64,000 bases of DNA from Ceratotherium simum simum. Its lineage: Eukaryota; Chordata; Mammalia; Perissodactyla; Rhinocerotidae. The translations under genes were made by a program, and so were the position numbers. The stretch's first letter is position 1. The number at the start of each line of letters is the position of its first letter. Under the pieces are notes generated by a model. It was not told where the DNA came from. It saw only the letters and a list, made by a program, of their open reading frames with translations, and searched no databases. Below are positions 7,781 to 54,733 of this stretch, piece after piece. The stretch spans positions 1,573,438-1,637,437 of the forward strand of contig NW_004454173.1 of assembly GCF_000283155.1 (NCBI RefSeq), written 5' to 3'.

Positions 7781-7956
7781 AAAGTTGCAATATGGGTTTT
7801 TTGATCTCTCCTATTCTATTCACAAAGGATGTCTTTTTGCTGTTTAATCAAAATGCTTCTGGCCTCATCCTTCTGGGAAGAGGCCATCCAAAGGAAATGC
7901 CTCTTTCTCTCACAACTAATGAGCCATCCAGTCTCCATTAATTGCTATGACTTTTT

Positions 7957-8172
7957 TTTTTTTTTTAAAGATTTTATTTATTTATTTATTTTTTCCCCCA
8001 AAGCCCCAGCAGATAGTTGTATGTCATAGCTGCACATCCTTCTAGTTGCTGTATGTGGGACACGGCCTCAGCATGGCCGGAGAAGCGGTGCGTCGGTGCA
8101 CGCCCGGGATCCGAACCCGGGCCGCCAGCAGCGGAGCGCGTGCACTTAACCGCTAAGCCACCGGGCCGGCCC
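7957..8172 (-). mobile_element. ERE1-type SINE, minus strand
   Basis: A reverse-oriented, well preserved ERE. A poly(T) start, 'cccccaaagccccag' near 7995, a 'gatccgaacccgggc' B-box complement near 8109, and a terminal GGGCCGGCCC. The 13-bp duplication gctatgacttttt occurs at 7944-7956 and 8173-8185. The many intact CpGs suggest a fairly recent insertion. Confidence 0.95.
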
Positions 8173-8185
8173 GCTATGACTTTTT

Positions 8186-9750
8186 AAGTGTACATTTGCA
8201 GGGGTTTCAAAAACCATTTGGAAATGTAATTATCATGTTTTCCACCTACATAAATACACAAGGGATGGATTTATTTATGTGGTTAGGTATATAATACATG
8301 TCCTGTTTTTTTTCCCCTTAGAATTTTCCCTTTTTCAGCAGACATTTCTGGGGCAAAGAAGGTTATGCTACGTTTTCAGTCACCGTCCATCAAAGGGGAC
8401 CTGGAGAAAATGTGCATATACCCAAGAGCACCCTTCTCACAGGCCTTGGAGAATGACTCGCTGCTGTTTACAAGAGGATTTTGCCTCATGTGAAGCAGGT
8501 GTTGAAACATTTGGACAGCTCTGTAAAAATTTTGGTGAAATGCTGTGAGCGTTAATCATCAGCCTGCATATTTTTTAAAAGTGCTTTTGGTCCTCCGAGC
8601 CACCTTCAGGTTGCAGAGCAGCCCTTTCTCGTGTTCCTTTGACCTAGTGTCCCTCCTGTCTAGTAGCCTTCGTTCATAGCTCGCATACCCTCAATCAATG
8701 ACTCTCACCACCCCCACCTCAGCTCACCAGCATCCGTCATTTTTAGTATTCATCCAGCTTCTGAAATTTCTCAACAAATTACACTGCTAAGTGAAAGTGA
8801 AGCCGCAGTTCCCTTGGTGTTGTCTGAACATGCGCGCCCAGGGGTTTTCTCTGTACCAAGCCACACTGCATAGTGGGTCACAGCAGTGGGTACTGCTTAG
8901 TGGGTCACAACAGTGGGTAACGGGGGACGAGCAGAACCTCAACAAGGTCAAAGGCGTTACTGCGAAATTCCTCAGGGCAAACCCCAGCCTGAATTGCTGC
9001 AGTACGGAACTACAGGAATGTTTTAAAAGAACAAAAATACTAGTATTGTTTCGCAGTGTTGCCTGGATAAAATTTTCCTCACTTTCCACCTTAATTATCT
9101 TACTATTTTTTACAAATTTATATTATACCAACCAAGCTCATCAGAAGTCCCTTTTTTTTTAGTTAAAAGATGGTGTTAATTAAGAAGGCAGAAAATACCA
9201 AATCATTCTACTTCAGAAGGTAACCCCAAATCACTAAATCCTTTACTTTGTACTGTGGCAAGTCTTCCAAAAGTAGTTGTAAAATCAATAACTGATGGCC
9301 TTATAGGAGATATTTCTAGCAGTTCTGCTGCTGTTAATTTACCTGGAGAGGAGAAACACAGTAACATCTCCCTGCTCCCTCTGCGCTCTAGACCTAGCAT
9401 GATATGAATCTCATGACCTCAATAACTGTCAGAAACTCATCCTAATCTAGCTCCACCCTTCCCAGCAAAGACTAAATCTTCGTAGTAAATAAGAGGGAAG
9501 CAAAGGACCAAAAAGTACATCAACTAGAATTCATCGTTTTTCTGATTATCCAACTTAACTCCATAAAGACACTGAAGGCAGATCATGAAATATAACTCCA
9601 GACCTCAGTACTCTGTGGACTTTGTTGCTTCATGTTGAGGGGTAAGAAAGTTGCATAGGCCAATCTATTTTTTGTTAGCCTTCTGCCTGGCTATGTGATG
9701 TGGTTAACTTTTTTCATTTGGCTTCTAAGGCCCAGTTCCCCCACTGGCTC
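8186..9750. other. Unassigned sequence with chance ORFs
   Basis: No repeat recognised across most of this stretch. It contains frames of 90-123 codons (8279-8548 and 8791-9162 plus, 8787-9089 and 9203-9400 minus) without recognisable domains. A pyrimidine-rich tract ending in 'ccccttag' at about 8305-8321 resembles a splice acceptor, but no matching donor or coding signal supports an exon. A short tandem repeat lies at 8871-8922. Confidence 0.45.
8871..8922. repeat. Two-copy 27-bp tandem repeat
   Basis: The unit beginning 'tagtgggtcacagcagtggg' at 8871-8897 is followed immediately by a second copy beginning 'tagtgggtcacaacagtggg' at 8898-8922. There is one substitution in the first 21 bases. 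It is a simple local duplication. Confidence 0.9.
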
Positions 9751-27420: not shown

Positions 27421-27441
27421 AGAAGAAGAGCAACAGTCTCT

Positions 27442-27664
27442 GGGCCGGCCCCGTGGCTTAGCGGTTGGGTGCACGCGCTCCGCTGCTGGCAGCCCGGGTT
27501 CGGATCCCGGGCACGTACCGATGCACCACTTCTCTGGCCATGCTGAGGCCGTGTCCCACACATACAGCAAATAGAAGGATGTGCAGCTATGACATACAAC
27601 TATCTACTGGGGCTTTGGGGGAAAATAAATAAAACAAATAAAATTATTAAAAAAGAAAAAAAAA
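27442..27664 (+). mobile_element. ERE1-type SINE with perfect 21-bp duplication
   Basis: The head is GGGCCGGCCCCGTGGC, the B-box-like segment 'gggttcggatcccgggc' lies near 27495, and the tail 'ctactggggctttggggg' near 27605 precedes an A-rich tract. The 21 bases at 27421-27441 are repeated exactly at 27665-27685, a perfect target-site duplication. This is one of the youngest-looking insertions in the window. Confidence 0.97.
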
Positions 27665-27685
27665 AGAAGAAGAGCAACAGTCTCT

Positions 27686-28724
27686 GATGATATATGGAGT
27701 AAGACGGCACTTGTATAACAGACTCTCTGTCAGCTCTGCTCTCAAGAGCTACACCTGTGCCTTCTCTTCCTGGGGGGAGGGAGGGAGACGGCTTGTTTTG
27801 ATTTACTTTGTCAGCAAGTCTTGCAGAAGCATCTCATGTCAAAGTGTTCTCCTATTTCACCCCCCTGTTTTTCCACCTGGTTAAGGTTATAGGTTCACAA
27901 TCATTTCAGCATCTTAAAATGATTTCCCACTCTTGACGTAGGTAGTGAGGAAGTGGGTTTGAGAGAGACAACGATGTAGGCAAGGAAACCAGCTAATGTA
28001 GGCAAAGCAGAGCAGGGTCAGGGAGTAGTCTGGGGATATTTGTGTGGGAGCAGGTATTGCTTGAGCTGGAGGAGTGAGAACTGTCTATGGAGATGAGACT
28101 TAGTCTTTCTAGAAGAAGGTTTCATCTAGCTCATGTCTGCCCAGAAGTCTCACAGTAGAGCCCAGAAAAAAACTGCTTAACTTCTTGTCCCCATTGTGGT
28201 CCCTTGGCAGAGGGACCTGGACCAGCAGACTGTCTAGTAAAGCATTGAGCTCCCTAGCCCTAGAAGAGTACAGGCAGAAGCCAGAGACCTATGTGCTCAG
28301 GTGTGGCACACATGGGCATTGTGACTTTTCACTATAATTTTAATGTAAATATTAATCTCTTCTTGAATCAACATCAAAACCTAGTTAACTTAATTTTTAG
28401 CCAATGAGCCATGTCTTCAAAAGAAAACTTGTGTGAAAACCTAGTATATAAAGCAGCTAAAAGTAGGGCTGTTCTTGGTCCGTGGTAGGATCAGGGCCTG
28501 AGACCCAGCTAACCCAGCCTTCCCGCAGTCTCTGAGAACCTGTCCTCAGATCATCACGTAAAAGCCATTGCTGTAACCAAACGTGTCTGCTATTGAGTCC
28601 ACACACACCTAGCACAATACGTACTTACAAATGGATTCTTTTTCTCCATTGTGAGTAATATACTACCAGGGGTCAGTATTCCTATGGCCTCTACATGAAA
28701 CAGTCCATAGATTGTCTCCACTCG
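27686..28724. other. Unassigned sequence with promoter-like motif pair
   Basis: No repeat named. A CCAAT at 28401-28405 precedes TATATAAAG at 28445-28453 by about 40 bp, followed by GC-richer sequence, an arrangement found in LTRs and some promoters. No transcript or LTR boundary can be shown. A 'tggggggagggaggga' purine run lies near 27771. Confidence 0.4.
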
Positions 28725-35485: not shown

Positions 35486-37209
35486 ATGGCCTCTACGTGT
35501 TCAAGTGAAAGGAAGAGTCACATGTCTCTTAAATCAAAAGCTAGAAATGATCAAGTTTAATGAGGAAGGCATGTCAAAAGCCCAGATAGGCTGAAAGCTA
35601 GGCTTCTTGGGCCAAACAGTTAGCCAAGTTGTGAATGCAAAGGAAAAGTTCTTGAAGGAAATTACAAGTGCTACTCCAGTGAACACGTGAATGATAAGAA
35701 ACTGAAACAGCCTTACTGCTGATATGGAGAAAGTTTCAGTGGTCTGGCTAGAAGATCAAACCAGCCACAACATTCCCTTAAGCCAAGGCCTAATCTAGAG
35801 CAAGGCCCTAGCTCTCTTCAACTCTGTGACGGCTGAGAGAGGAGAGGAAGCTGCAGAAGAAAGGTTTGAAGCTAGCAGAGGTTGGTTCCTGAGGTTTAAG
35901 GAAAGAAGCCGTCTCCGTAACATAAAAGTGCAAGGTGAAGCAGCAAGTGCTGATGTGGAAGCTGCAGCAAGCTACCCAGGAGATCTAGCAAGGGTAATTA
36001 ATGAAGGTGCTACACTAAACAAAAGATGTTCAATGTAGGTGAAACAGCCTTCTATTAAAAGAAGATGCCATCTAGGACTTTCGTAGCTAGAGAGAAGTCA
36101 ATGCCTGGCTTCAGAGCTTCAAAGGACAGGCTGACTCTCTTATTATGGGCTAACACAGCTGGTGACTTTAAGTTGAAGCCAATGTTCATTTACCATTCCG
36201 AAAATCCTAGGACCCTTAAGAGTTACGCTAAATCTACTCTGCTTTTGCTCTATAAATGGAAAAACAAAGGCTGGATGACAGCACATCTGTTTACAACATG
36301 GTTTACTGAATATTTTAAGCCTGCTGTTGAAACCTACCGCTCAGAAAAAAGATTCCTTTCAAAATATTACTGTTCAATGACAATGCACCTGGCCACCCAA
36401 GAGCTCTAATGGGGATGTACATGAGATTAATGTTGTTTTCGTGCCTGCTGACACAACATCCATTCTGCAGCACATGGATCAAGGAGTAATTTCAATTTTC
36501 AAGTCTTATTGAAGAAATACATTTCATAAAGCTATAGCTGCCATAGATTGTGATCCCTCTGATGGATCTAGACAAAGTAAATTAAAAAGCTTCTGGAAAG
36601 GATTTACCATTCTAGATGCCATTAAGAATATTTGTGATTCATGGGAAGAGGTCAAAATATCAACATTAACAGGAGTTTGAAAGAAGTTGATTCCAACCCT
36701 AATGGATGACTTTGAGGGGTTCAAGACTTTGGTGGAGGAAGTAACTGCAGATGCGGTGGAAATAGCAAGAGAACTAGAATTAGAAGTGGAGCCTGAAGAA
36801 GTGACTGAATTCCTGCAATCTCATGAGAAAACTTTAACAGATGAGGAGTTGCTTCTTATGGATGAGCAAAGAAAGTGGTTTCTTGAGATGGAAACTACTC
36901 CTGGTGAAGATGCTGTGAAGATTGTTGAAATGACAATAAAAGACTTATATAAACTTAGTTTATAAAGCAGTGGCAGGGTTTGAGAGGATTGACTCCAGTT
37001 TTGAAAGAAGTTTTACTGAGGGTAAAATGCTATCAAACAGCATCGCATGCTACAGAGATATCATCTGTGAAAGGAAGAGTCAATCAAGGTGGCAAACTTT
37101 GCTGTTGTCTTATTTTAATAAATTACCACAGCCACCCCAGCCTTCAGCAACCACCACTCTGATCAGTCGGCAGCCATCAATAACTGAGGCAAGACCCTTC
37201 ACCGGCTAA
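35486..37209 (+). pseudogene. Tigger1 transposase pseudogene
   Basis: Pogo-type transposase: it would cut and paste its own element through a DDE/D nuclease after N-terminal CENP-B-like helix-turn-helix DNA binding. The start codon at 35486 opens 'MASTCSSERKSH'. A second open block (35826-36038) covers the second helix-turn-helix ('[14 protein letters not shown]'). A third (36065-36409) covers the start of the catalytic core ('[20 protein letters not shown]'). The second acidic motif 'NDNAPGH' is readable near 36376 but in another frame, and the acidic C-terminal block ('[16 protein letters not shown]') is open at 36687-36965. The final frame ends at 37209. Several frameshifts separate the blocks, so no functional protein is made. 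Human relatives domesticated from this group include TIGD genes and CENP-B (established knowledge). Confidence 0.95.
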
Positions 37210-38185: not shown

Positions 38186-39364
38186 AATGAGTTGACTCTC
38201 AAAATTAGAGGATTCTCAGCCTTTCTTCCCATTTCAGGACTTCAAGCCATTCACTCTGTTGCTTATTTCCCTTGTGTGACTAGGAAAACAAGTGTCTTCA
38301 GTAAATGCCTCCAATAGGAACTCTGAACATCAATTAAATCAGTGAAAGAACAAGCACGGAATATGATGACAAACATATGAAACAAACTACAGCCTCAGTG
38401 ATTTACTGACTTTTAACCTTCCTTTGCTCAGAATCGTGAGTTTCATACATTTCTGGTTATTTTCCAAAAGGTTGCTGCTGTCCTTTTTGCCTTCCAATAT
38501 AACTCGGGAAAAGTGTCTGTCTGTTGGATCCTGATTCTCTGTACTGTAAAATAACCTCCAATGAATTCTAAAGTGTGTATTGGATTATGTGTGACCTCAC
38601 ACAATGTAGTTATGAATTATATCCTATCTTGGGCTATTCTCTCTTTATTTCCTGTCTTGCCTTCTCAAGTTTCTTGTGGGAGCAGATTAAAGAAGATATT
38701 TTCTAACTGAAGGCCTTTTCTGCTTCCTAGGCATATATTTATTTCTGAGATATACTGCCCTCCCTTCCAAGCTTTTTCCTGAATTTCCTTAGATTTCTAT
38801 AGGTGAATCTGCCTTGCCAGTCCCATATATTGGCATGCAAACAATCCAGCTAAGATCCTAAATCAAGATTTATAAATTTTCCTCCTTGTCTCCCATGGCT
38901 ATGCAAAAGTTCTCTTCCCATTTATCATTACTCCACATATATACCTTACGAACTAAATCTTTTTTAGTCCCTGGTTCATTGTTGTAACTTTAGATGTATA
39001 TTGTTATGGACCCACTTGTTATTTATTGAGTTATCACAAAAATAATCCCAAAGATAGTCTTCCTTGATTTTAGTCAAGTCTACAAAAATTGTGCAAGTTT
39101 TAATTCTCTGTGCAAGATTATACCCTCATGGACTGACGTGTGGAAACAGAGAATATCATGAAGAAATAAATTCTCTGGGAATTTACAGATTAAACCCAGG
39201 GTTGAAGGCAGTGATGTTCTGGATTCTCATAGGCCTTGAAATTAGCAGTTTAATCCAAGGTCATTAAAATCTCCAAGGAGCACTAGGCTTCAGATGACTT
39301 CTTGGCAACAGATGTAAATTTAACTAGTAATGTGCAGTAAATTAATATTTAGCAAATATGTATT
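38186..39364. other. Unassigned sequence
   Basis: About 1.2 kb with no nameable repeat or gene. The frame 39064-39267 has no recognisable motif. Confidence 0.45.
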
Positions 39365-39378
39365 AATAATGTATAGTC

Positions 39379-39695
39379 GGGCCGGCCCCGTGGCTTAGCG
39401 GTTAAGTGCGCGCACTCTGCTACTGGCGGCCCGGGTTCAGATCCCAGGCTCGGATCCCTGGTGTGCACTGACGCACCGCTTCTCCGGCCATGCTGAGGCC
39501 GCGTCCCACATACAGCAACTAGAAGGAGGTGCAACTATGACATACAACTATCTACTGGGGCTTTGGGGGAAAAAAGGAGGAGGATTGGCAATAGATGTTA
39601 GCTCAGGGCCGGTCTTCCTCAGCAAAAAGAGGAGGATTAGCATGGATGTTAGCTCAGGGCTGATCTTCCTCACAAAAAAAAAAAGTTAAAAAAAA
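39379..39695 (+). mobile_element. ERE SINE, long form, plus strand
   Basis: The head is GGGCCGGCCCCGTGGC. After the usual 'ggggctttggggg' segment near 39557 it continues for over 100 bp with two related units ('agatgttagctcagggccgg' and 'ggatgttagctcagggctga') before the A-rich tail. The 14-bp duplication aataatgtatagtc occurs at 39365-39378 and 39696-39709. Confidence 0.96.
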
Positions 39696-39709
39696 AATAA
39701 TGTATAGTC

Positions 39710-40425
39710 AATTCGTATTTAATAAACAATTAGTGATGTGTAGTGAATTAGTAATTAGTAGTAAATGCTCTTTAGTGAGTTGTAATGAGTGTGACTCATG
39801 GAGGGCTGCTAGGTGGCATGTCCTGCCTCTCTCCCAGTACTCCTGGGAATATCAGGAAATGGGGCGAGCATCTTTTCACAAAGTCATATTAAAAGTTCAA
39901 TTAACCCAAAATTCTATATTAAAAAAACTTTCCTGTACTCTGTAACATTTAAAAGTAGTAAAGAAAAAAATTCCACGCTCTTGAAGACAAAAATTGGTAT
40001 GACCCAGCAAAAACATCTATCTGTTGACGGAAGCTCAGCTCCTCTGTCTGCCCGGCTCCTCTCTCCGCAGTCTGCTCTCCCCTCCAGAGCCTCAGGCTGC
40101 ACTCTTTTCACATTCTGACTTTTGGGAAACTACGAGATCAAGAAGCAGTGCCCTCCCGGCTCACTCTCCTCTGGCACACTCATGTTGCCAAGAGAGAGAA
40201 ATTCACTGTCTACCAGTTCCTCCGTCTCATTTTCCTCTACAATCCCCGTCAGATTTCGTTTCTTGGCCAGAGTCACTTCCCATATCCATGGGGTCTTCTG
40301 AGGGAAGCCCCTAGTCGTTTGAGCCCTACCCATTCTACAGTCCTTCTCTGCATTACAGCCTTGCTAGAAAAAGGTACAGCTGAATCTAAATGAGACAATA
40401 TGTTCATTGTTTTTTAAAATTGTAA
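39710..40425. other. Unassigned sequence
   Basis: A GC-richer block at 40030-40340 gives overlapping frames on both strands (39813-40118, 40024-40314 and 40148-40393 plus; 39914-40111 and 40130-40333 minus). Frames open on both strands in the same place indicate composition and not coding. No domain is recognised. Confidence 0.4.
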
Positions 40426-40665: not shown

Positions 40666-40995
40666 TCTAATATAAGAAACAGAGTTTCCTGGTGTAAAAT
40701 AAACAACTATTTTGCTTCTGTGGAAGCAAGGGGGTCATTTAACAAAGTGAGTATCTAGCTTTGTACAGTAAGCATTCAATAAATTCTAGTGAATGAACGG
40801 TAACAGACACTGTTTCCTTTTTATACCAGAAGGATATCTTTCTTTTTCCCTAAACAGCTTATGAAAGTCATTGTCTTCAAGTGTTCCTTGTGCTCTGACA
40901 TTCTCCGTTGTAAAATGCAGTGTGCAAGGACCAATACACTCTTAGCTGCAGATTACGAAATTGAAAGCTCTTAATTAGAATGTCAAGGCTTTGAT

Positions 40996-41209
40996 GGGCC
41001 GGCCCCGTGGCTTAGTAGTTAAGTGCGCGTGCTCCGCTGCTGGTGGCCCGGGTTCGGATCCCGGACGCGCACCGATGCACCGCTTCTCTGGCCACGCTGA
41101 GGCCACGTCCCACATACAGCAACTAGAAGGATGTGCTGCTATGACAGACAATCATCTACTGGGGCTTTGGGGGAAAAAGTAAGTAAGTAAAATTAAAAAA
41201 AAAAAAAAA
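40996..41209 (+). mobile_element. ERE1-type SINE with perfect 19-bp duplication
   Basis: Head GGGCCGGCCCCGTGGC, B-box-like 'gggttcggatcccgga' near 41050, tail with 'ggggctttgggggaaaaagt', short 'aagt' repeats and a pure poly(A). The 19 bases agaatgtcaaggctttgat at 40977-40995 recur exactly at 41210-41228. A young copy. Confidence 0.97.
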
Positions 41210-41605
41210 AGAATGTCAAGGCTTTGATAATGCCATGATAAAGAGTGCTGACAACAAGACCTTGATTACTGAAAGATCTGGAAGTATTTTCTGGATCATC
41301 AAAGACTAAATTGATTCAACATGATTTTTCTATTGAGTATATTTGTGATATTCACAGTCTTTGAAACTGGTAACCTAGGGAAGCTCCTAGTGTAATCATC
41401 TAGTCACACCACACCTAGAGAAGTAGGAGCTAAACAGATACTTGTTGAACTTAAAAAAAAAGAGAGTGGGAATTGGTAAGGTATGTAGCATACATAGCAA
41501 TTCAGTCTTCTAACTAGGGATTTAATTAATAAGAACATCATATTGTTAAACCAGAATAGAAAACAGAGCTATCATTAAAGGTTAGGTGCGTTAACATTAC
41601 TATTT

Positions 41606-41901
41606 TTTGTGTGTGTGTGTGAGGAAGATCAGCCCTGAGCTAACATCCGTGCTAATCCTCCTCTTTTTGCTGAGGAAGACCGGCTCTGAGCTAACATCTA
41701 TTGCCAATCCTCCTCCTTTTTTTCCCCCAAAGCCCCAATAGATAGTTGCACGTCATAGTTGCACATGCTTCTAGTTGCTGTATGTGGGAAGCGGCCTCAG
41801 CATGGCTGGACAAGCGGTGCGTCGGTGCACGCCCGGGATCCGAACCCGGGCTGCCAGTAGGGGAGCACACGCACTCAACCGCTAAGCCACAGGGCCGGCC
41901 C
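41606..41901 (-). mobile_element. ERE SINE, long form, minus strand
   Basis: Reverse orientation: a (TG)n run at 41609-41622 replaces the usual poly(T), then two 'gagctaacatc' units, 'cccccaaagccccaatagat' near 41724 and a final 'agggccggcc'. The 13-bp duplication aacattactattt is at 41593-41605 and 41902-41914. Confidence 0.95.
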
Positions 41902-42285
41902 AACATTACTATTTAAATAGCAGAATTTCTTTATGAAATGGAATTTCTCTAGCTATGCTGCCTAGTGGGCCACCTTATTATTTTCTCATTTGTATGAACA
42001 GCGATTTCTAAAGATAGATAGAAGTGCAAGAGAGAGGTTTCCTAAACACACAGGCATTCCCCAAATTTGGCAATGTTACTTTCACAAAATAAGCACTTTA
42101 AAAAAGTATATGTTGACTCCACAACAGATTTCTACACACCAGATTTAGCCTGTAGAGCACCAGCCAATGACCTAATAGTGCAGCCATCATTTTTATAGCT
42201 GCCTGCCAGACAACAGTTTAATGTTGGTGTCATCACCTTATTTGTCCCCAGAGCAGTTTGTATGGTTAAAAAATACATATATTTT

Positions 42286-49584: not shown

Positions 49585-49840
49585 CACCAAGCCCACTATG
49601 TGCCAGATACAGCACCATGCTTTGCATATATTGATTATTCACTTCTCTTCCGAGGGCCTGGCACATCATAATCCCTCAAAGAGCTACTGAATGAATAAAT
49701 GATAGATAAATAGATATTAACACCTATCTTAATATTAATATCAATACCATCTTAGTGATGAGTAATGTCAGCAAAGAACAATTAATTTGGACAGGGTTAT
49801 ACAATGAGTTCATGACAGAGCTGACATTTTTAATTCTCCC
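49585..49840 (-). mobile_element. Degraded MIR/L2-like remnant crossing the inverted-repeat boundary
   Basis: 'cccactatgtgccagataca' near 49590 looks like the tail of an antisense MIR. 'accatcttagtgatgagtaa' near 49746 and 'acagggttatacaatgagtt' near 49791 could be its core. Between them lies 'gggcctggcacatcataatc', a second tail-like piece. If the reading is right, the ancient element runs unbroken across 49733, the outer edge of the left arm. Confidence 0.5.
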
Positions 49841-51117
49841 TCCATCTCCTCAAGCTAAAGGGCTTATCAAAGTATTTCAACCACATACAGTACTTTTCTT
49901 AAAAGAGATTCAGCAAATATAATGCTCTCTATTTTATTACATTTCCAAGAGTATTCAAGTATCTGATGATCTTTCTACTATCCTACACTGTCTAGGTCCA
50001 CCTTAATCCTTCAACTCATAAAACAATGGTTTATGTCACTAGGTTAGCAATGAAATATCATTTCATTGTGACATCTCTGGTGCTATTATTTCATTTAGCA
50101 TATTTTATAACTTCAATTCAATCTTAGGTTCTTTGAAGGCAGAGATTTGGTGCTATTTACATTTTTGCATTACCCTCATCATCTCATGGTGTGTTGATCA
50201 CATAGTAGTAGATATTTAGCATTTTTAGCAAACTGATTACAATGAAAAGACACTATTGGTGCCACTCTGTGATCAGACATCAAGAGACACTGAGGAGGTT
50301 TCTTTAACTCTCACAGCCAACATCTTATCACTACAAGGACCATTGAAACAATAATCAATGATCCAGACCTGGCCCATGAGACAGGTCCAAAAAATAAAGA
50401 AATCTAATGTATCAAGATACAGTAGCCTCTATTGCTTGCTTCTTCTTCTTCTTCAATAAACAATGATACATATTTGAGTTAAAATGAAATAATTCAAAAA
50501 TTCAATACTTTTTTGGTCCCGCTAGAATTGAGAAATTTTGAGGCCTTTAGGACCACATTATTTCCAAGAGGAGATTTTTTTACAGTTCATGTGTATTCCT
50601 TTGGTTTAACCAGAAACCATGTATGTGACCATTTCCCGCATTTATAACTTGATTGGCAGTTTCCACTCTCCTCAAAGTGAAAGGAAAGCATTGGTTGTAC
50701 CAAAGTGGGGCCACATAGCCAACGGGTTCCAATGGAGTAAGCACCGAGATTTACGAAAGTGTTCAGTGAATGTACTAATCCAAGGAAGTCGGTGGGCCAT
50801 GTTTGTTAAGTGTGGAACTTTATAGCACAGGTACTGACAGCTAGTAATGAGATACAGAAACTTTTACCACATCAGTAGCCCAGTCCTTCCTGGCTTGGAG
50901 TTGGCCCAAGATCTGTGCCCTCTGCTACCATGTTTATGATACACAGCACAGCACGGGCTGCTGAAGATGCCCATTTTTCAGTTCAAGGGGTGCTCAACCA
51001 TTTCTTCCACATCTTTACTCAGGAGAAGTGATTTTCTAAATTCTTGGATGCTGGAAATGACCCAAACACAGCTCACTAAACTAATTTCTCTCAGAATTTT
51101 TAAATGCGTGTGCATTT
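49733..51117 (+). repeat. Left arm of a 1385-bp perfect inverted repeat
   Basis: Every base compared in this arm pairs with the reverse complement of 53327-54711 (paired positions always sum to 104444). Reading line by line I found no mismatch. The match stops at 49732 (a against a) on the outside and after 51117 on the inside. The arm contains an old L2 3' end (about 50125-50240) and no transposon termini at its edges, so it is a segmental inverted duplication and not a mobile element. The 68-codon frame at 50619-50825 appears in both arms purely because the DNA is duplicated. Confidence 0.98.
50125..50240 (+). mobile_element. L2 LINE 3' end inside the left arm
   Basis: 'ggttctttgaaggcagagat' near 50127 and 'gttgatcacatagtagtaga' near 50194 fit an L2 3' terminus. 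Its mirror image lies at 54204-54319. The element is ancient, so both copies must derive from one L2 duplicated recently. Confidence 0.65.
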
Positions 51118-53326
51118 GAGCATAAACACTATCCATATGTTTCTGATTCATTTACACTGAACTCATCAAAGGGCTGTGTTGTAAGAGCTGTTTGATGTCA
51201 GGAACACTTGAGGGTTTTTTTTAAAGGAATTTTATACTTTCTTTCACCATTTTCCTTAGGAAGCCAAACGTTGTTGAGAGTAAACAAACTTGGACCCCCA
51301 AGGATCTGGGGTTTACCCTCATATTCAAAACGCGGGAGGAGGTAGGTCGGCAGCTTGGCAGGAAAGGCATGCCTAGCCTTGGCTGTATCTTGGCACTATT
51401 CCCCAAAGGATAAGCAGGCCTAAGGCTGAGCAGGGAAACCCCTTTTGAGAGGCCTTCTTTCATTTGGTGGCTTATTCATTCAATTTTAAAAAGTCACCTC
51501 AAACTCTTGGAAGCTACTTGGGGTCTGTCCCTTGCTAGTTGGAGAAGAAGGCTTTAAACTGTTGCTACTGCAATTGCCCTTCAGTTTTTGGAAGGGAACC
51601 AGAGGAGGCTTTTTAGAAAACGGTATTTGTTCACCTGACTACATCATGTCCTACACTGATGTGCTCAAGAGACAAGACAAGCATCTCTGGCTACAGCTGA
51701 GAAGCAATTAAAGTTGCTCTTTTACAAACATGTGGCTCATTCCATTTTTCCTTCATTAAGAACAAAAGAGAAGGAGGGTCATTTATTGCCATGAGTCACT
51801 TGAGGTATAATGGAAGGAATTCCAAGACGCTGCTGAGACAAAACAAAACTGACATTATGAAAGCCATGTCTAAACACTAATTTAAACTGTCAACTTCCTA
51901 CCAAGGAAGACTCCTGACATACAGAGAATTAAAGCTTTAAAGATCTCGTAAATCACTGAGGAGATTAGCACCAACGTGGACGAGGTAAAATGCATTTCTG
52001 CCTCTGGAGGGTTGGAGCGGTTCAAAGCTGTCCTCTAGGATTGGACAGGAAAATTAGTTGTAATAACTAGGAAGAGAAGAATTCTCAAACGTAGCTTCTT
52101 GGGGATTTCAGAGTGCAAGCTTCGCCCACCACAGTTATTTCAGGTACTCGAGTTAGTGAAATATAATATAGACGCTTTCAGGATCCAGCATATAGTACAA
52201 TAAAAATGACTTGAAAAATGTTAGAATTCAAAAACATTATTTACAAATACCGAACATTTTTCCAACCCCAAACCACTCAAATAGCTAAAATGTCAACCCA
52301 AGTGTCTGACTTCATGGTGGCTTTAACACCACTCTGTCCATCTCCTGTTTTCCATGTGTGCCTTTCTCCAAGGATCTTGCTGCATATGTATTGTTCTCCG
52401 GCAAGATCCATCACCATGTCCCCAGTTATAACGGTGAAGTTTCCAAGTTCTGTCGCCACACCAAGAAGTCTTCAGAGAAAACTTGGTTGGGATTTCCATC
52501 AATTTTTATATTTCAATATTGCCACTTCAGGGCTTTTGAGTTAAGAATAAAGGAACCACTGGCTCCAGTGTGAGCATCCTCAACCTCACCCACTGCAGAT
52601 AGAATGAGCATAAGGAGGTCCTGTTCCCCAGTGGTCTGCACCCAGAGAGGCTGAGACCCTGCTAGGAGAGAGAAGCAACTGAGTGTTGTGCAAACCTTTC
52701 AAGAGAGAAGAGGCAGAGAACTGTGAACTTGAAGAGCTAAATCACACTGCACTAACTCTTCTCCCCACTCCCGAGGTCTCACTAACCATTTCTCTATGGG
52801 TTCTTTCCCAAAGACCCCATCAAATAAAACTGTTTCCTAAGTCACTGGTGCACTCTAGAGGAATCTCTTTGATTTGGATCCTACCACATCTCCTCCAGTC
52901 CAGAAAGGACTTTCTGAAGCACATGTTGATCTGGTCTCTTCCTTCCCCAAATTGGAAACTTTTGCATGCAGTAATTTTATTCCATTCTTTGATTTTTTCT
53001 TCTTTTGGCTTAAATTGAAGTGATACAGAAATCCACACAGAGAAGAGTGGAATATAATTGCTACGATCTTCAGACTGAATCAGCCTCATCCAAGATATAG
53101 CTGCTATGTTCTCCTTTCTTCTCAGGCATTTTGCTTCTTTACCTCTGCACTCCTATTACTGGCAGTTGTCAGAAGAGTCAGAAAAGGGTTTATGTGGCTA
53201 ATGGAGAACACTAGCAGAACATTTAAGGAAGCATCTTGAAGTGAAACCAGTTGATTCAACCACACACATCCAGCTGTGGGACACTCACTCCCAAGTTCCA
53301 AGACAGAAAACTTAGACCCCAGCTTT
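51118..53326. other. 2209-bp spacer of the inverted repeat
   Basis: Single-copy sequence in this window, not self-complementary. No repeat is named. Frames on both strands (51221-51463 minus, 52218-52544 plus, 52277-52459 minus, 52683-53018 plus, 52820-53089 minus) have no recognisable domain. A pyrimidine tract ending 'ttttccttag' near 51248 resembles a splice acceptor but has no partner. The spacer could invert by recombination between the arms. Confidence 0.6.
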
Positions 53327-54711
53327 AAATGCACACGCATTTAAAAATTCTGAGAGAAATTAGTTTAGTGAGCTGTGTTTGGGTCATTTCCAGCATCCAA
53401 GAATTTAGAAAATCACTTCTCCTGAGTAAAGATGTGGAAGAAATGGTTGAGCACCCCTTGAACTGAAAAATGGGCATCTTCAGCAGCCCGTGCTGTGCTG
53501 TGTATCATAAACATGGTAGCAGAGGGCACAGATCTTGGGCCAACTCCAAGCCAGGAAGGACTGGGCTACTGATGTGGTAAAAGTTTCTGTATCTCATTAC
53601 TAGCTGTCAGTACCTGTGCTATAAAGTTCCACACTTAACAAACATGGCCCACCGACTTCCTTGGATTAGTACATTCACTGAACACTTTCGTAAATCTCGG
53701 TGCTTACTCCATTGGAACCCGTTGGCTATGTGGCCCCACTTTGGTACAACCAATGCTTTCCTTTCACTTTGAGGAGAGTGGAAACTGCCAATCAAGTTAT
53801 AAATGCGGGAAATGGTCACATACATGGTTTCTGGTTAAACCAAAGGAATACACATGAACTGTAAAAAAATCTCCTCTTGGAAATAATGTGGTCCTAAAGG
53901 CCTCAAAATTTCTCAATTCTAGCGGGACCAAAAAAGTATTGAATTTTTGAATTATTTCATTTTAACTCAAATATGTATCATTGTTTATTGAAGAAGAAGA
54001 AGAAGCAAGCAATAGAGGCTACTGTATCTTGATACATTAGATTTCTTTATTTTTTGGACCTGTCTCATGGGCCAGGTCTGGATCATTGATTATTGTTTCA
54101 ATGGTCCTTGTAGTGATAAGATGTTGGCTGTGAGAGTTAAAGAAACCTCCTCAGTGTCTCTTGATGTCTGATCACAGAGTGGCACCAATAGTGTCTTTTC
54201 ATTGTAATCAGTTTGCTAAAAATGCTAAATATCTACTACTATGTGATCAACACACCATGAGATGATGAGGGTAATGCAAAAATGTAAATAGCACCAAATC
54301 TCTGCCTTCAAAGAACCTAAGATTGAATTGAAGTTATAAAATATGCTAAATGAAATAATAGCACCAGAGATGTCACAATGAAATGATATTTCATTGCTAA
54401 CCTAGTGACATAAACCATTGTTTTATGAGTTGAAGGATTAAGGTGGACCTAGACAGTGTAGGATAGTAGAAAGATCATCAGATACTTGAATACTCTTGGA
54501 AATGTAATAAAATAGAGAGCATTATATTTGCTGAATCTCTTTTAAGAAAAGTACTGTATGTGGTTGAAATACTTTGATAAGCCCTTTAGCTTGAGGAGAT
54601 GGAGGGAGAATTAAAAATGTCAGCTCTGTCATGAACTCATTGTATAACCCTGTCCAAATTAATTGTTCTTTGCTGACATTACTCATCACTAAGATGGTAT
54701 TGATATTAATA
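53327..54711 (-). repeat. Right arm of a 1385-bp perfect inverted repeat
   Basis: Exact reverse complement of 49733-51117. The inner edge is 'aaatgcacacgcat' at 53327; the outer edge is 'tgatattaata' ending at 54711, after which the two arms differ. The frame 53619-53825 (minus) repeats the left arm's 68-codon frame residue for residue. The outer edge falls where the left-arm sequence appears to continue an ancient repeat, which favours this arm as the derived copy (inference). Confidence 0.98.
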
Positions 54712-54713
54712 AA

Positions 54714-54733
54714 AACTTGCAAAGATGCAAGTT
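54714..54733. repeat. Perfect 8-bp-stem hairpin at the outer junction
   Basis: 'aacttgca' is followed by the 4-base loop 'aaga' and the exact complement 'tgcaagtt'. It lies two bases outside the right arm. It has no counterpart outside the left arm. Confidence 0.9.

Follow-up and report, generated by a model that had tools for sequence, protein, structure and literature searches.

How does a stretch of apparently non-coding mammalian DNA come to carry the same 1.4-kb sequence twice, in opposite orientation, 2.2 kb apart and without a single difference between the copies? The question is posed by an inverted repeat in a 64-kb genomic stretch (hereafter the window, meaning the whole of the DNA analysed), in which the left copy (arm A, 49733-51117 (+)) is the exact reverse complement of the right copy (arm B, 53327-54711 (-)), with 1385 of 1385 positions identical, no gaps and an identity that breaks off sharply at all four edges. 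The original prediction had described exact reverse-complement arms with abrupt ends, and the self-alignment that it proposed as a check bears this out: the arms were recovered, and every other self-BLAST pair in the window (pairs longer than 100 bp, E ≤ 1e-10) was at most 90.6% identical. Since no other exact inverted match in the window exceeds 37 bp, the length of one between two copies of a short interspersed element (SINE), chance and ordinary repeat pairs are excluded. The arms have a GC content of 37% and 8 CpG, single-copy flank follows arm B up to the window end, and a check of the whole window found zero N. The locus has the arrangement of the inverted-duplication class, that is, an inverted second copy near its source together with a single-copy spacer, and, if the assembly is right, it is most likely a known kind of structural variant. 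We favour, with moderate confidence, a recent interstitial inverted duplication that would have arisen via fold-back or microhomology-mediated template-switch synthesis. The features on which the argument draws are collected in the table.

Table. The inverted repeat, its spacer and the short hairpins at its edges (window positions).
Feature	Positions	Strand	Remark
Arm A, 1385 bp, likelier original (template) copy	49733..51117	+	Exact reverse complement; direction suggested weakly by microhomology
MIR remnant, outermost in arm A and mirrored in arm B	49733..49828	+	By comparison with a MIR consensus
Spacer, 2209 bp, once in the window	51118..53326		Present orientation not necessarily the original; empty site derived for both orientations
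Arm B, 1385 bp, likelier inserted inverted copy	53327..54711	-	Empty site ...CCCCAGCTTT|AAAACTTGC...; AAAACTT repeat around arm B
Hairpin over arm A outer edge, 7-bp stem, 8-nt loop	49714..49735		17.5% of random 40-nt windows as stable; unremarkable
Hairpin ending exactly at arm A inner edge, 6-bp stem, 4-nt loop	51102..51117		5.8% as stable
Hairpin over arm B inner edge, 9-bp stem, 4-nt loop	53324..53345		1.1% as stable
Hairpin 2 nt beyond arm B outer edge, in single-copy flank, 8-bp stem, 4-nt loop	54714..54733		2.8% as stable

Using a MIR consensus, with 300 shuffled 400-bp chunks as the null for both MIR and L2 scoring, we obtained a MIR score of 157 for the first 130 bp of the arm (maximum of the shuffles 147, n=300), with the 96 outer bp aligned. 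Ancient remnants of both L2 and MIR had been predicted within the arms. The MIR part of this claim holds, but the L2 scores inside the arms (88-89) are at shuffle level (99th percentile 88, maximum 91), a better-scoring L2 3' end (116) being found outside arm A, at 49653-49702 of the left flank. With a MIR remnant in the arm and zero divergence between the arms, the earlier proposal of old sequence caught up in a recent inverted duplication is the best-supported reading. Because the arms show zero differences, the duplication would be younger than about 1.2 million years (My), provided that no gene conversion took place; the parameters given for the horse (rate 7.242e-9, generation 8 years; PMC7723042) set the bound at 1.19 My. 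At the mutation rate of 2.2e-8 per site per 25-year generation given in PMC13296254, the probability of zero differences without conversion after 6.8 My, the reported age of the split between black and white rhinoceros (PMC11240701), is 6.3e-8. Without conversion the event would therefore postdate that split, and the sister genus should be without the duplication.

The direction of copying can be approached through the junctions. If arm A served as the template, microhomology amounts to 3 bp (AAA) at the inner switch and 0 bp at the outer one; if arm B did, it is 0 bp at both. In 20,000 random arrangements, microhomology of at least 3 bp arose by chance in 6.4% at a given switch and in 12.1% at either. 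With arm A as template, the empty B site reads CCCCAGCTTT|AAAACTTGC, which is TTT|AAAA at the point of insertion; the exact motif TT|AAAA occupies 0.3% of window positions when both strands are counted. On either side of arm B stands a copy of the 7-bp direct repeat AAAACTT (53307..53313 (+) and 54712-54718), with 13 nt separating the left copy from the arm. Direct repeats of at least 7 bp occurred by chance in 1.2% of 5000 random pairs, and the best direct repeat around arm A is 2 bp. The earlier statement that no target duplications mark the edges is thus correct for the immediate edges, but not for this repeat 13 nt off. The 13-nt stretch separating arm B from the left repeat copy has no second occurrence in the window on either strand, so no local filler template was found. 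Microhomology, direct repeat and TTT|AAAA site are not independent, since all three share one A run; taken together they favour arm A as the original and arm B as the copy, a direction that we consider fairly likely. Continuity of the MIR remnant into the flanks was also tried as a polarity test and rejected as uninformative: the gain was 16 into the A flank and 7 into the B flank, and 44% (A) and 73% (B) of 2000 random flanks did as well (median 14, 95th percentile 45).

Hairpins, defined as perfect stems of at least 6 bp with loops of 0-8 nt within 3 bp of an edge in a test devised after looking, are present at 4 of 4 edges, against a background of 7.5% of positions (2.8%, 0.9% and 0.25% for stems of at least 7, 8 and 9 bp). 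They amount to about three independent sites, not four, because the two inner edges share arm sequence: the hairpin over the arm B inner edge is the arm-internal 6-bp hairpin made 3 bp longer at the junction, and it is one of 6 hairpins in the window with stems of at least 9 bp and loops of 0-8 nt. Folding energies were compared with those of 4000 random 40-nt windows (half-window 20). At the three ancestral breakpoints with arm A as template, 2.8%, 5.8% and 17.5% of the random windows were as stable (combined p about 0.012), with corresponding values of 1.9%, 5.3% and 35.6% at half-window 25 and of 4.3%, 6.4% and 22.2% at half-window 30. The breakpoints with arm B as template gave 100%, 2.8% and 1.1% (combined p 0.013). 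As a polarity test, folding energy was accordingly discarded (p = 0.012-0.013 in both directions), and a part for the breakpoint hairpins in the mechanism is suggestive only.

In the sequence of events that we favour, a strand synthesised from left to right through the spacer would stop at 53326, beside the 54714-54733 hairpin. Its 3' end, sharing AAA, would anneal to the complementary strand where arm A has its inner edge (51117), and backward copying of arm A over about 1.38 kb would follow until the template was left at 49733, the site of another short hairpin. Rejoining to the original right flank (54712 on), without microhomology, might reflect a second switch or end joining. Written in four-point template-switch notation, the order would be 3-2-1-4, and the event would add 1385 bases, leaving the 2.2-kb spacer unchanged between two perfect arms. 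In support of such an origin we count the perfect, sharp-edged arms, the AAA at the inner switch, the hairpins at all four edges and a spacer within the fold-back range. A more specific version, in which a kilobase-scale template switch had each of its breakpoints at a short hairpin (stall at the 8-bp, landing at the 6-bp and release at the 7-bp stem), is put forward tentatively and is unlikely in our estimate.

Related events have been reported in several systems. Inverted duplications are reported to outnumber every other class among 733 inversions other than mobile-element insertions in 1,019 people, with 277 events and a median of 284 bp; most of them have breakpoint microhomology of 1-15 bp, and they are read as replicative (PMC12350158). 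The present locus resembles these human germline events in its nearby inverted extra copy and the lack of long breakpoint homology, and perhaps in its microhomology of a few bases at one of the two switches, and differs from them in length (1385 bp) and in mammalian order. For human fold-back inverted duplications, single-copy spacers of 766-70,466 bp (median 3,428) are reported at 21 of 21 sequenced junctions, of which 13 have 2-8 bp of inverted microhomology, 3 lie in long repeats and 5 carry insertions (PMC3907307). The 2209-bp spacer and the 3-bp inverted microhomology found here are in the range of these duplications with disomic spacer, whereas the human ones are large and come with terminal deletion, translocation or ring, and ours is interstitial, 1.4 kb long and rejoined to its own flank. 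We therefore liken it to them in its working and do not file it as a member, because their chromosome-end character is absent here. Short-range template switches in apes, with copied fragments of median 12 and maximum 128, share the order 3-2-1-4 (or 1-4-3-2) that gives a single perfect inverted repeat (PMC7954356); here, unlike there, 1385 bp were copied and the jump is 2.2 kb, which places the event outside that size class. Foldback-templated inverted insertions at yeast breaks are mostly about 5-34 bp, far from 1385 bp; one of their ends uses microhomology and the other is sealed by end joining, which would fit the outer rejoining without microhomology (PMC11724301). Also in yeast, a short inverted repeat of 5-9 bp whose spacer measures 3-12 bp is stated to be able to drive palindromic duplication (PMC7999016, citing others).

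Several points weigh against the favoured origin. Each junction signal is weak (about 0.3-12% by chance), the signals are in part correlated, and they, like the hairpin test, were arrived at post hoc. The outer rejoining has 0 bp of microhomology. The MIR remnant gives no proof that arm A is the original. Folding energy combines to only p about 0.012 and is equally good for the opposite direction (0.013). The copied length, finally, is far above the human median (PMC12350158) and exceeds the maximum of the short-range switches (PMC7954356).

The explanations that compete with a young template-switch duplication can be judged against the same observations. The warning of the original prediction that the structure might be an assembly artefact still holds: arm B, as the likelier of the two copies, might be a misplaced inverted contig piece or a gap fill, the animal itself having a single arm. 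A misplaced piece would give exact identity over 1385 bp automatically, and EquCab3 is reported to have been gap-filled from error-prone long reads with PBJelly (PMC6240028), though the window is probably not horse. Against this, the window contains no N, and the edges show microhomology and hairpins, neither of which an arbitrary contig edge would require. The common chimeras, namely amplification palindromes and missed adapters, are described as having arms that meet (PMC6218980); we infer that neither a 2.2-kb single-copy spacer nor a return to single-copy flank would be expected from them. Altogether an artefact seems to us somewhat unlikely. Slightly less probable still is the reverse direction, with arm B as the original, arm A as the inserted copy and the order 1-4-3-2. 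Both the 9-bp inner and the 8-bp outer hairpin of arm B would then pre-exist, but microhomology is lacking at both switches and the empty A site has neither a direct repeat longer than 2 bp nor a stable structure.

An old inverted repeat whose arms gene conversion keeps identical, in the manner of sex-chromosome palindromes, would be compatible with the zero differences and with a short hairpin at each edge. Given the probability of 6.3e-8 after 6.8 My, however, conversion would have had to keep all 1385 of 1385 positions, both ends included, identical, and a young duplication is the simpler account of the same facts; nor was a gene recognised, the four open reading frames (ORFs) that overlap the structure being Pfam-negative (E ≤ 0.01) with arm-internal ORFs outside the scan. 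We regard such an origin as improbable. The likeness to sex-chromosome palindromes consists in identical inverted arms about a spacer (PMC6218980, PMC7999016); the comparison with X/Y palindromes made earlier nevertheless finds no support, the arms measuring 1385 bp against 8.7-1450 kb in the human palindromes P1-P8 as listed in PMC6218980, and no gene being recognised. Most improbable of all is an endonuclease-initiated or retrotransposition-like insertion, through an L1-type nick at TTT|AAAA or as a retrocopy made from an arm A antisense transcript. TTT|AAAA is a form of the L1 endonuclease target. The rarity of the exact TT|AAAA motif and the AAAACTT direct repeat around arm B, with the chance frequencies given above, would both suit such an insertion, but the left AAAACTT copy is 13 nt away from the arm and, apart from the A run of the site, no poly(A) tail is present, arm B ending ...GATATTAATA and then AAAACTTGC of the site. 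A retrocopy is moreover not expected 2.2 kb from its source, and rhinoceros L1 is reported to have been extinct for about 20 My (PMC5872511), though Ere SINEs are reported active later (PMC11240701).

No function of the inverted repeat is indicated. Of the 240 ORFs of at least 60 amino acids in the window, a Pfam scan (E ≤ 0.01) covered 10 stop-free ones and gave 0 matches. Four of these 10 overlap the structure, three lying in the spacer and one crossing the outer edge of arm B into the flank; the other six lie elsewhere, and none of the 10 is wholly inside an arm. The longest ORF wholly inside arm A has 72 amino acids. One open frame of 94 amino acids at 36681-36962 (+), unmatched in Pfam at the same threshold, may resemble a fragment of a Tigger/pogo-type transposase. 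An Rfam scan of the window gave 0 matches at the gathering threshold. An exact 31-base pattern from the arm had 0 matches in viral_contigs and 0 in genome_contigs, a null that is uninformative because these collections are not mammalian. Among titles and abstract openings on inverted repeats or palindromes of the horse genome, none concerned such a locus. Inversion of the spacer through recombination between the arms is possible. Extrusion of a cruciform, which had also been proposed, is unlikely, because it starts at the palindrome centre and longer spacers are described as lowering the risk (PMC7999016), and the spacer here is 2209 bp.

The SINEs of the window are Ere elements of odd-toed ungulates, and they speak to the lineage from which it comes. 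Two EreA_2TD copies, with two terminal domains each (39360-39710 (+) and 41600-41925 (-)), are inverted to each other and 88% identical; this subfamily is reported as numerous in rhinoceros only (PMC11240701). Two EreA copies without terminal domain carry 4 (7940-8190 (-)) and 3 (27430-27690 (+)) overlapping AATAAA signals, for which a count of one is reported in equids and of three on average in rhinoceros (PMC11240701). The copy at 27430-27690 has TTATT where the terminator would be, and TTAT/TTATT is reported as frequent in rhinoceros copies (PMC11240701). A fifth EreA copy (40980-41240) is without AATAAA and not informative on lineage, and three EreB copies were not used for this reading. 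Because of these EreA features the window is probably from a rhinoceros rather than an equid, and the equid origin assumed in the original prediction is probably wrong. Two published statements on rhinoceros elements make an uneasy fit with each other, namely the extinction of L1 about 20 My ago (PMC5872511) and a later activity of Ere, with reported differences of tens of thousands of copies between the black and the white rhinoceros, which diverged 6.8 My ago (PMC11240701).

Should the second arm prove to be an assembly error, it deserves a flag in the assembly concerned. If hairpins did guide a switch of this size, a process known from fragments of tens of bases would also work over kilobases in the mammalian germline and would bridge the scale between micro-inversions and the copy-number variants of disease. 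If the structure is real, it would be a clean and nearly scar-free case, from a rhinoceros lineage, of a young inverted duplication whose length falls between nucleotide-scale template switches and clinical inverted copy-number variants, and it could mark one species or subspecies.

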